IMG/VR virus record: IMGVR_UViG_3300035225_000014
Coordinates: 1 to 29,643 of that record
DNA: 29,643 nucleotides
Reading direction: 5' to 3' (one strand)
Origin: a virus
The notes under the pieces are model-generated. The model was not told the origin of the DNA. It worked only from the letters and a program-made list of their open reading frames with translations, and searched no databases. Within the stretch, counting starts at the first letter, position 1. Each line of letters starts with the position of its first letter. The translations under genes and the position numbers were made by a program. Shown here piece after piece: positions 3 through 14,748 of the stretch.

Positions 3-605
3 AAGTTTACAAAATCGACATTTGAAGAATCATTAAGAGATATTTTTCCATTATTACAGAAAGTAAATGAAGAAGAATTGGAAAATCGTAGACTCAATCA
101 AGTAGATAGAGTTAAAGAAATAATTTCGGCAAGAACAAAAAAGACTGATGAAATAATCAATGTGATATCTTTTGGTGGACCAAAAGATGGATACGACTAC
201 GAGCAGATTAAGAAGCAATATGCTGAACCTCGTACACCGGAAGAAGCGGCTCAAAAGAAAATTGATATGATAGCAATGACATTTGATGATTTAGCGGACA
301 GAGTTGATGTAGATACATTAGATGACAAAAAAACGAAAAAGAAAGGGCACGACAGAGCGGCAGAATTGTCATTCTTCTTGACTGATATTGCTAATGATAT
401 TCGCAAGACTCCAGCAGGCGTTGATAAAGAAAGAATAAAAGTCGCTGGTCATTTATTGAAAATGTCTAAAGTAAAGATAGAAAAACAGACAAAAACAGCA
501 GATGAAAATTGGGATGTGATGGTTGAACAAGCATTTTCAAAGTTTGACTCAGATAGAGTTCTGATTCAGGAAGAAAATACAAAAAATATGTCATTTTCTA
601 GTTGA
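3..605 (+). CDS. Unrecognised phage protein, 5' end outside window
   Basis: The reading frame is open from the first complete codon at position 3 to TGA at 603-605, so this is the C-terminal 200 or so residues of a longer protein whose start lies upstream. An internal TTG at 78 lacks a ribosome-binding site and is not a convincing start. The protein is strongly charged, with many Lys, Asp and Glu residues and no membrane segment. It contains a run of basic residues (DDKKTKKKGHDRAAE) and is predicted to be mostly helical. It ends just before a terminator hairpin. I do not recognise the family. Its place before the gp32 gene does not by itself define a role. Confidence 0.7.
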   Translation, partial: KFTKSTFEESLRDIFPLLQKVNEEELENRRLNQVDRVKEIISARTKKTDEIINVISFGGPKDGYDYEQIKKQYAEPRTPEEAAQKKIDMIAMTFDDLADRVDVDTLDDKKTKKKGHDRAAELSFFLTDIANDIRKTPAGVDKERIKVAGHLLKMSKVKIEKQTKTADENWDVMVEQAFSKFDSDRVLIQEENTKNMSFSS

Positions 606-631
606 CAAACACACATCAATTGTGTTATAAT
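602..631 (+). promoter_or_regulatory. Sigma70-like promoter upstream of the gp32 leader
   Basis: TTGACA at 602-607 and TATAAT at 626-631 are both exact consensus hexamers, separated by 18 bases. The -35 box overlaps the stop codon of the preceding gene. The predicted start near 638 falls inside the terminator hairpin at 632-656, so transcripts from this promoter would lack the 5' arm and escape termination. It would add a second, longer leader of about 200 bases to the gp32 mRNA. Confidence 0.65.
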
Positions 632-658
632 AAAAGGGAGTTAAGTGCTTCCTTTTTT
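632..658 (+). terminator. Rho-independent terminator
   Basis: The arms at 632-640 and 648-656 form a 9-bp stem with one G-U pair and a 7-base loop. The stem runs into a T tract at 653-658. It probably ends transcription of the upstream gene. The hairpin is AT-rich apart from the GGG segment, so it may be leaky. Confidence 0.55.
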
Positions 659-724
659 ATTGTTTAAATTATTTTCACAACAATCTTGAAGTTAAAAAAA
701 CATTCAAAAAGTAGCATTTAACTC

Positions 725-753
725 TTGACTTTTGCAAAAAAGATAAGTATAAT
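725..753 (+). promoter_or_regulatory. Sigma70-like promoter for gp32
   Basis: TTGACT at 725-730 and TATAAT at 748-753 are separated by exactly 17 bases. Transcription would start near 760, giving a leader of about 80 bases before the gp32 start codon. The 236-base gap between 606 and 841 contains only this promoter, the upstream promoter and terminator, and the leader elements. Confidence 0.8.
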
Positions 754-754
754 G

Positions 755-841
755 GTATCATGCTTAAAAAATATATGATACGTTTAGGCTAATATAACTA
801 ATATACAACAAAACTAATAAAGGCTAATATAGGAGAATATA
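755..841 (+). promoter_or_regulatory. gp32 mRNA leader: hairpin plus CTAATA repeats
   Basis: GTATCAT at 755-761 pairs perfectly with ATGATAC at 775-781, giving a 7-bp stem with a 13-base loop. Downstream, the unstructured AU-rich leader contains CTAATA four times (789-794, 798-803, 814-819, 824-829). AGGCTAATATA occurs twice (786-796 and 821-831), the second copy running into the ribosome-binding site AGGAGA. T4 gp32 is known to repress its own translation by nucleating on a 5' structure and spreading over an unstructured AU-rich leader to the ribosome-binding site. The same layout here suggests an analogous operator. That role is inferred, and no T4 sequence match is claimed. Confidence 0.5.
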
Positions 842-1840
842 ATGGCTACACTAGCAGAAATCCGTGCGAAATTACTCGCACAAGACAATAAGGCATCAGA
901 AAACTCACAAGCAAATCGAGGCTCAGATGCAGTATATCCTTTCTGGAATATGGATAATGACAATACAGCAGTATTGAGATTCCTTCCAGATGGAGACCCC
1001 ACTAACACATTCTTTTGGAAAGAACGTCAAGTTGTTAAACTTCCGTTTCCAGGTGTTAAAGGCGGCGATGAAGCAAAACGAGTAATCGTTCAAGTTCCTT
1101 GCGTTGAAATGTGGGGAGAACCATGCCCAATTCACGCAGAGATTCGTCCTTGGTTCAAAGATCCAGCGATGGAAGATTTAGGTCGCACATACTGGAAGAA
1201 ACGTTCTTACGTTTTTCAAGGATTAATTGTTACCGATCCAATCGGTGGTGAAAAACCAGAAAATCCAGTACGTAGATTTATCATTGGACCACAAATCTTC
1301 AAGTTATTGAAGGCGGCTCTAATGGACCCAGATATGGATAATCTACCAACAGATTATGAACAAGGTACTGACTTCCGTCTTACTAAGACAACAAAAGGTC
1401 AATATGCTGATTATTCAACTTCAAGTTGGTCACGCAAAGAACGTTCATTAAATGAAGAAGAACGTGCGGTAATTGAAACGCATGGTCTTTTTAATTTAAA
1501 TGAGTTCATGCCAAAACGTCCAACAGAAGATGATATGAAAGTAATCACAGAAATGTTTGAAGCATCTGTTGATGGTGAATTATATGATCCTGCACGTTGG
1601 GGACAATATTATAAACCTTACGGTTTAGATGTTCCTGCAGGAACTTCAACAACTAAAACTGCAACTCCAACTACTCCTAAAGTAGAAGAAGTTAAAGTAG
1701 AGGCAACAAAGGAAGAGACAGTAGCACCAGCAACTGCAACTCCTACACCGTCATCTGCGACAGTAACAGTAACCTCTGATGCACCGAAGGCCGATGCGGC
1801 AGATATCTTAGCAATGATTCGTAGTAGAAAAACTGACTAA
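842..1840 (+). CDS. gp32: gp32-like single-stranded DNA-binding protein
   Basis: This 332-residue protein matches the T4 gp32 family. Gp32 coats single-stranded DNA during replication, recombination and repair, and recruits the helicase loader, polymerase and UvsY. The core is visible around residues 87-118, with C87 and C95-x2-H98 in the zinc-finger region followed by RPWFKDPAMEDLGRTYWKKR, a stretch conserved in marine T4-like gp32. T4 uses His and three Cys as ligands. One of these appears replaced here, so zinc binding is uncertain. The C-terminal third is a low-complexity Thr/Pro/Ala/Val/Glu linker ending in a conserved-looking ADAADILAMIRSRK tail, where T4 has its acidic protein-interaction tail. 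The start ATG follows AGGAGA with good spacing. The gene has its own promoter and terminator, as in T4, and a leader suited to autoregulation. Confidence 0.93.
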   Translation: MATLAEIRAKLLAQDNKASENSQANRGSDAVYPFWNMDNDNTAVLRFLPDGDPTNTFFWKERQVVKLPFPGVKGGDEAKRVIVQVPCVEMWGEPCPIHAEIRPWFKDPAMEDLGRTYWKKRSYVFQGLIVTDPIGGEKPENPVRRFIIGPQIFKLLKAALMDPDMDNLPTDYEQGTDFRLTKTTKGQYADYSTSSWSRKERSLNEEERAVIETHGLFNLNEFMPKRPTEDDMKVITEMFEASVDGELYDPARWGQYYKPYGLDVPAGTSTTKTATPTTPKVEEVKVEATKEETVAPATATPTPSSATVTVTSDAPKADAADILAMIRSRKTD

Positions 1841-13737: not shown

Positions 13738-14748
13738 ATGAATAATATAAAGATTGAAAATGGGATATACAACAATACAGATATCAGTGGTGTATTTCCT
13801 TTACTTAAAGGTCTTACAAAATCCAAAGATGGTTCGTATTTTGTAAAAATCAATGTTAGTGATGCAGAGGACAAAGTTTTCAAAGGTCGTGAAGCAGTTC
13901 GAGTTAAAATTGAAAACCAAGACCAAGTTACCGAAGTTGAAGATGTTAAACTTGGTAAAAAAGTTGTTGAAACTGACGAACAAGGAATGGATAGAATTAA
14001 AGAACGTTTTGAAATTCTGGAAGAAATGACTAATGCTACTCTTGACGGTATAGTTAGGGGTATGGTTGTTACAGGACCTCCAGGAGTTGGTAAAACATAC
14101 GGTGTTGAACAAGTTCTTGAAAAAGATGGTTTGTTCGATATGATGGCAGACCGACCAATGCGACATACATTTGTTAAAGGTGCCATGTCGGCACTTGGAT
14201 TGTATTCTAAACTTTATGAGTATAAAGATTCTAATAATATCCTTGTTCTTGACGATTGTGATACAATTCTGTTTAATGAAGATGCCCTTAATATTCTAAA
14301 AGCGGCTCTTGACTCTTGTAAGAGAAGAAAGATTTCTTGGAATACAGATTCTCATTTATTAAGAAGAGAAGGTGTTCCTAGTACATTTGAGTTTAATGGT
14401 TCTGTTATCTTTATTACTAACTTAAAGTTTGATAATATGAGAAGTACAAAGATTAGAGACCACTTAGAGGCTATTCTTTCAAGATGTCACTATCTTGATT
14501 TGACCCTTGATACAACTCGTGATAAGTTGTTGAGAATTAAACAGATTGCCAGAGAGGGCGGATTGTTTGATACTAAGGGCTTGACTAAAGTTCAAGAACA
14601 AGAAATTATCGACTTTATGTATGAAAACAAAAATAAACTTAGAGAGATTTCTTTGAGAATGGCTCAAAAGATTGCTGACCTAAGAAACATGGATTCAAAT
14701 AGATGGAAACTTCTGACTGAATCAACTTGTATGAAACGAGCAGTTTAA
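13738..14748 (+). CDS. AAA+ ATPase
   Basis: This 336-residue protein has a Walker A motif GPPGVGKT at 113-120 and Walker B ILVLDDCD at 168-175. Sensor-1 lies in VIFITNLKF (N228), and an Arg in LSRCHYLDL near 249 may be the arginine finger. The first 100 residues form a separate basic/acidic domain. AAA+ proteins remodel proteins or nucleic acids. This one is not the usual gp44 clamp loader, since the flanking residues differ and gp62 is not adjacent. A standalone phage AAA+ protein with its own promoter is best described as a remodelling ATPase of unknown target. The stop codon lies in a perfect 22-bp palindrome. Confidence 0.85.
   Translation: MNNIKIENGIYNNTDISGVFPLLKGLTKSKDGSYFVKINVSDAEDKVFKGREAVRVKIENQDQVTEVEDVKLGKKVVETDEQGMDRIKERFEILEEMTNATLDGIVRGMVVTGPPGVGKTYGVEQVLEKDGLFDMMADRPMRHTFVKGAMSALGLYSKLYEYKDSNNILVLDDCDTILFNEDALNILKAALDSCKRRKISWNTDSHLLRREGVPSTFEFNGSVIFITNLKFDNMRSTKIRDHLEAILSRCHYLDLTLDTTRDKLLRIKQIAREGGLFDTKGLTKVQEQEIIDFMYENKNKLREISLRMAQKIADLRNMDSNRWKLLTESTCMKRAV

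Follow-up and report, generated by a model that had tools for sequence, protein, structure and literature searches.

Does the leader of a phage gene for a single-stranded-DNA-binding protein (SSB), headed by a hairpin and carrying one six-base word four times ahead of its ribosome-binding site, act as the switch through which the protein limits its own synthesis? Autoregulation of gp32 is a textbook case, detailed in T4 and RB69. The leader studied here occupies positions 755-841 of the window, by which we mean the whole 29,643-nt stretch of DNA that was analysed (IMG/VR record IMGVR_UViG_3300035225_000014) and on which all coordinates are given. On the analyses below we consider it probable, with moderate confidence, that 755-841 is the leader of a gp32-type SSB mRNA and most likely serves that gene's own product as a translational operator. 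Study across diverse T4-related phages has been urged in a 2010 review (PMC3014915).

The SSB gene and its relatives

The gene behind the leader (842-1840, plus strand) encodes 332 aa and had been called gp32 in the initial annotation. Profile searches bore this out, with matches to the Pfam gp32 family (PF08804, E 1.2e-6, above the family cut-off) and to the SSB family phrog_1192 (E 8.9e-67), and so did the predicted fold. The structure model (mean pLDDT 66.3) matched T4 and RB69 gp32 cores in Foldseek, the best four chains ranging from E 8.5e-8 (T4 gp32) to 2.6e-7, and VIA-align gave Z 14.2 to the RB69 gp32 core and 13.9 to the T4 gp32 core, the first unrelated row standing at Z 3.8. A sequence search of the PDB (query A2) gave no match up to E 1, although the fold search matched. 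The next gene, at 1900-2970 on the plus strand, encodes a UvsX-like recombinase by profile matches, and UvsY and NrdA genes also lie downstream. Kinship with marine T4-like phages, which the initial annotation had supposed, was not borne out: among the 40 of 61 matches listed, the nearest named relatives are the jumbo phages Sinorhizobium Phosso, Pseudomonas Paride and PA5oct, Agrobacterium Atu_ph07, GAP32 and RaK2, at 45-57% identity.

Leaders were compared in two sets. The first was drawn from 80 relatives, from which L030 (its match starts at residue 88) and L018, L034 and L048 (too short) were excluded; the remaining 76, together with the window and 8 named phages, made 85 leaders in 37 clusters. 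The hold-out set began with 160 loci, of which 23 were dropped for a partial match or short flank and 56 as too similar to the first set, leaving 81 leaders in 33 clusters. Since both sets belong to one protein family and the clusters are related, the p-values given below are too small (optimistic).

The leader and its two predicted promoters

The hairpin lies at 755-781 on the plus strand. Its arms, GTATCAT (755-761) and ATGATAC (775-781), pair perfectly around a 13-nt loop, which confirms the 7-bp stem of the initial annotation, and a helix of this strength at this position is uncommon in dinucleotide shuffles of the window leader (p 0.02). The word CTAATA follows on the same strand at 789-794 (within AGGCTAATATA), 798-803, 814-819 and 824-829 (within AGGCTAATATAGGAG). 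The four copies do reach the ribosome-binding site as proposed, the last one ending one base short of the Shine-Dalgarno sequence AGGAG (831-835, plus strand), behind which the ATG stands at 842. Between the hairpin and the start codon there are 60 nt (782-841), more than 40 nt, with a mean unpaired probability of 0.59 in the window. Whole-leader folding z-scores were uninformative, that of the window being unremarkable (z -0.57). The 50 nt upstream of SSB start codons have an unpaired probability of 0.62 (n=59) versus 0.52 in G+C-matched leaders of other genes (n=105), and the suggestion of a weakly structured leader is thereby upheld. Rfam covariance models gave 0 matches up to E 1 in window positions 500-1000, and sub-threshold rows only on T4.

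A sigma-70-type promoter, TTGACT-17-TATAAT (725-753, plus strand, 11/12 match), is common to close relatives. Sigma-70 starts usually fall about 7 nt past the -10 element; the predicted +1 is here near 760, inside the 5' arm, and in folding an RNA from 760 is unable to form the stem. Overlapping this promoter is a T4-late-type motif, GATAAGTA (742-749, plus strand), that differs from the T4 late promoter TATAAATA at 2/8 positions and is invariant in 18 aligned close leaders, while relatives carry GATAAATA, TATAAATA or ACTAAATA in its place. T4 late promoters have TATAAATA at -13 to -6 (PMC1524935), and with the same spacing the motif predicts a +1 at 755, where the stem begins. The initial annotation had placed the hairpin at the predicted 5' end of the mRNA, which agrees with the late-type start (755) and disagrees with the sigma-70 start (about 760, within the stem).

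In total, NATAAATA-type sites are no more frequent in the window than expected by chance, and only their placement is notable: 6 of the 8 plus-strand sites are intergenic (2997, 11730, 24969, 26883, 27968 and 27989), where intergenic DNA amounts to 1912 of 29643 bases by the ORF list. These six are likely late promoters. Besides NATAAATA motifs, the T4 late system has in common with this family a gp55-like sigma (phrog_12791) in the relatives. It was found in 8/8 complete named relatives and in 5/10 further contigs, the five being all those above 170 kb that were searched; shorter contigs, fragments that may miss it, gave 0/19 (including 0/14 of 30-115 kb), and no gp55-type sigma was among the scanned ORFs of the 29.6-kb window. 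For the jumbo phages CBB and GAP32 a late-type motif ATAAATA has been proposed from the regions upstream of structural genes, and in CBB it was reported together with a gp55-like sigma (PMC5259590). The class of motif is the same as in the present leaders; the SSB leader goes unmentioned in the accessible sections of that paper, and no late-type motif is evident at the SSB leader of GAP32.

Conservation of stem, words and hairpin start

According to the initial annotation, alignment of relatives' leaders would tell whether stem and repeats are conserved, and a lack of conservation in close relatives would speak against an operator. In the alignment the stem covaries, with a score of 0.266 against 0.163 for shuffled data (0/500 shuffles, 18 close leaders), and the repeats are retained. 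Standard pairs fill 91.2% of the stem cells in the 18 distinct close leaders, as against 12-56% in slid controls, and G-U pairs take the place of Watson-Crick pairs in the stems of close relatives. Native 3' halves pair better than chimeric halves taken from other leaders (18.6 versus 11.0, 23 clusters), the native pairing ranking above all 22 chimeras in 12/23 clusters. The dimensions of the hairpin are variable across relatives, with best-stem loops of 4-26 nt and arm lengths that also vary widely. RNAalifold found a weak consensus on alignment A1 (-1.97 kcal/mol), in our reading because MAFFT misregisters the rows with longer arms (L017, L020, L021 and L024).

Four copies of CTAATA were seen in 0/2000 leader shuffles, and no 6-mer reached four copies per 45 nt in 60 shuffles of the window; pairs of identical 6-mers number 20 in the window leader versus 2.4 when shuffled (p 0.003). 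Among the 22 close members CTAATA occurs four times in 17 and three times in 5. The last two copies are 10 nt apart in all 22, other spacings running from 9 to 24, and the last copy begins 18-20 nt ahead of the start codon. The family form of the word is AGGCnnA. A wider form, WGGCHHA, was derived by eye from the first set, in which it is present in 28/30 environmental SSB-leader clusters (at least two copies in 19) versus 10/194 leaders of other genes (at least two in 2). In the hold-out it was found in 20/33 clusters, with at least two copies in 7/33, so the word weakens with distance. Exact 6-mer repeats gave no clear separation, being significant in 9/37 SSB leaders versus 11/80 controls, and T4's own leader is likewise non-significant in that test. 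Other repeats occur in named phages, namely CACAAT in Atu_ph07 (p 0.007) and AACAAA in XbC2 (p 0.09).

AGGCnAA words were also observed ahead of the Shine-Dalgarno sequence of two AAA ATPase genes of phrog_1250 (L043:6146-6961 and L049:3633-4445), and are not in the leader of the window's own phrog_1250 gene (13738-14748). The ATPase is a possible second target.

The hairpin start was compared with the predicted late +1 by scoring the best helix that begins at each offset from it. The late motif NNTAARTA, with its +1 at 60-100 nt from the start codon, is present in 23/37 first-set clusters. Mean helix score peaks at offset 0 (16.2) and is 5-9 at more than 10 nt away, and 17/23 clusters exceed dinucleotide shuffles at p < 0.05. 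Because the idea arose from first-set leaders, the test was repeated on the 33 new clusters: the motif was in range in 12/33, the peak again fell at offset 0 (18.0), and in 9/12 the best helix was no more than 2 nt away. When the range was loosened to 35-127 nt, a hairpin stood at the late +1 in 16/28 (first set) and 9/22 (hold-out) motif-bearing clusters, where random anchors gave an expected 3.0 and 2.0 and a maximum of 7 in 200 trials each. The rule fails in the other 12/28 and 13/22, and 20/70 clusters (9/37 and 11/33) have no motif even in this range; in several hold-out clusters the motif is further upstream and the hairpin begins 6-20 nt past its +1. A hairpin beginning at the late +1 is a real tendency across these relatives and is not universal.

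This tendency is largely particular to the SSB gene. At 28 late-like motifs preceding other genes of these loci, scores at offset 0 averaged 6.4, and a score of 16 within 2 nt was attained by 2/28 of them versus 15/23 SSB clusters (Fisher p 1.4e-5). None of 17 other late-like motifs in 240 kb of Atu_ph07 reaches 16, a threshold that its own SSB leader, at 14, also falls below. As for the sigma-70-type promoter, 17/70 clusters are without one, and its start falls within the best hairpin in 34 of the 53 clusters that have it; in the remainder the hairpin is wholly downstream (7), upstream (1) or none is strong enough (11). Hairpin profiles anchored on the sigma-70 start have no sharp peak. The 26 clusters with both promoter types, whose predicted starts are 5-16 nt apart, allow a direct comparison: the late +1 is the better predictor of the hairpin start in 20 and the sigma-70 +1 in 6 (p 6e-4).

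The operator reading and its rivals

Autorepression is made the most likely function by a protein of the same fold, by parts in the same order as in T4, and by words nearly confined to the SSB gene. T4 supplies the precedent for gp32 autoregulation through the leader (PMC535899, PMC3014915). SSB in excess of single-stranded DNA would settle on its own leader, probably making first contact at the hairpin, and would then spread along the words (CTAATA in the window, AGGCnnA across the family), which are weakly structured, until the Shine-Dalgarno sequence is covered and translation stops. Counting against the operator are the lack of a conserved pseudoknot, a sigma-70 RNA that would be without the stem, the clusters that break the rule of a hairpin at the late +1, the poor separation by exact 6-mer repeats, and the phrog_1250 gene with the same words in cluster L043.

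The T4/RB69 gene 32 operator and the window have in common a gp32-fold SSB gene, a 5' structure followed by a weakly structured A+U-rich leader, and repeated words that extend to the ribosome-binding site. The words are UUAAA/UAAA in T4/RB69, whereas the window has four CTAATA and the family AGGCnnA, and in the relatives, unlike in T4/RB69, the hairpin tends to begin at the +1 of a late-type motif. The T4 operator begins with a pseudoknot, its nucleation site (PMC535899), whereas the window has a plain hairpin and no conserved pseudoknot was found. Of the T4 layout, the gp32 fold, the weakly structured leader and repeated words, of another sequence, are present here, and a conserved pseudoknot was not found. 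In our reading of the T4 structure, the loop of a 7-bp hairpin pairs with bases upstream of the hairpin. Among our leaders, pairing of loop and flank was better than for shuffled loops in 0/21 clusters (38 leaders, combined p 0.98; window p 0.13), and the candidate second stem showed no covariation. With the second stem unsupported, the element in the window is best called a hairpin. A pseudoknot of GCUUA (762-766) with UAGGC (785-789) is attractive by eye in the window and was supported neither by shuffles nor by covariation; the order of its pieces would probably be sterically awkward.

Two candidate H-type pseudoknots, both chosen by eye first, were noted in other SSB leaders: CGTTGT/ACAACG in Vibrio phage 2.275.O (L084, p 0.012), the only leader that looks pseudoknot-positive, and AACCC/GGGTT in Paride (L083, p 0.089).

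The operators of T4 and RB69 already differ in sequence (PMC535899). RB49 has no pseudoknot according to the accessible parts of both PMC3014915 and PMC535899, which disagree about its leader, the former giving no A+U-rich sequence and the latter conserved UUAA units. An independently evolved operator, as the initial annotation suggested, is not supported: since the protein is homologous and the T4 and RB69 operators already differ, such an origin is indistinguishable from fast divergence.

Among the other explanations, one that seems to us unlikely is that the hairpin stabilises the late mRNA from its 5' terminus and that the words act as a translation enhancer or standby site, with no SSB binding. 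This would suit a hairpin at the predicted 5' end of the late RNA, as 5' stem-loops slow mRNA decay, and an unstructured leader also favours efficient translation; a general stabiliser, however, is expected on other late transcripts, and only 2/28 and 0/17 other late-like motifs have a hairpin, and the near-confinement of the words to the SSB gene also counts against it. More improbable is that some other RNA-binding protein of the phage, RegA-like or unknown, binds the words and controls SSB and a few other genes. A general repressor would mark many genes and at least two words are found in only 2/194 other leaders, although the same words do stand before the Shine-Dalgarno sequence of the phrog_1250 ATPase gene in cluster L043. 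T4 offers precedents on both sides, RegA, whose sites are A+U-rich and lie at start codons (PMC3014915), and gp32 itself.

We give still less credence to the two remaining explanations. If the inverted repeat were the operator of a dimeric repressor over the promoter, which is very improbable, it would lie in the usual place, straddling the sigma-70 start in the window as the best hairpin does in 34/53 clusters. Against this, its loops (4-26 nt) and arms vary widely in length, G-U replaces Watson-Crick pairs in close relatives, and its start tracks the late +1 over the sigma-70 +1 (20 versus 6 clusters). The least likely of all is a terminator overlapping the promoter and shielding the SSB unit from read-through: of the 34 clusters with a hairpin across the sigma-70 start, 8 do have a T-run after the 3' arm, but the window hairpin, with 7 A+U-rich pairs and no T-run, is absent from the terminator-like sites of our scan.

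The reading of 755-841 as an SSB operator may have a further layer. As an early start would cut the hairpin, promoter choice could decide, by the start base, whether the SSB mRNA carries the hairpin operator, a reading of the sequence that we hold possible but doubtful. A sigma-70 and a gp55-type late promoter would be nested in about 30 bp with the 5' arm between or across their two starts; early RNA would be without the hairpin and late RNA would start with it. Provided that SSB nucleates on the hairpin, SSB mRNA made early would escape repression and that made late would come under feedback, and the coupling of the hairpin to the late start, if it is real, would add a temporal layer to gp32 autoregulation. 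In the open-licence literature, titles and abstract openings dealt with T4 and RB69 or with jumbo phages in general; none described gp32 leaders of jumbo phages or connected a hairpin with a late start, which does not prove that no such work exists.

Several other elements were noticed at or near SSB leaders. A T-run follows a hairpin straddling the sigma-70 start, in the manner of a terminator overlapping a promoter, in L037, L058, L072, L189, L192, L198, L209 and L258. Further upstream in the window, at 602-656, a perfect sigma-70 promoter (TTGACA-18-TATAAT, 12/12, with TG before the -10) abuts a terminator-like hairpin with a T-run (632-656). A unit of this type with changed stem letters is present in L001, L002, L004, L006, L008, L010, L013, L014, L015 and L019 and absent from L017, L020, L021 and L024 (14 relatives inspected); it would produce a very short transcript or protect the SSB unit. 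By eye, the SSB promoters of L029, L033, L042, L044 and L067 contain an inverted repeat, ACAGTA..TACTGT or variants, with its arms on the -35 and -10; the letters of the repeat change between groups, and in these five the leader hairpin is internal.
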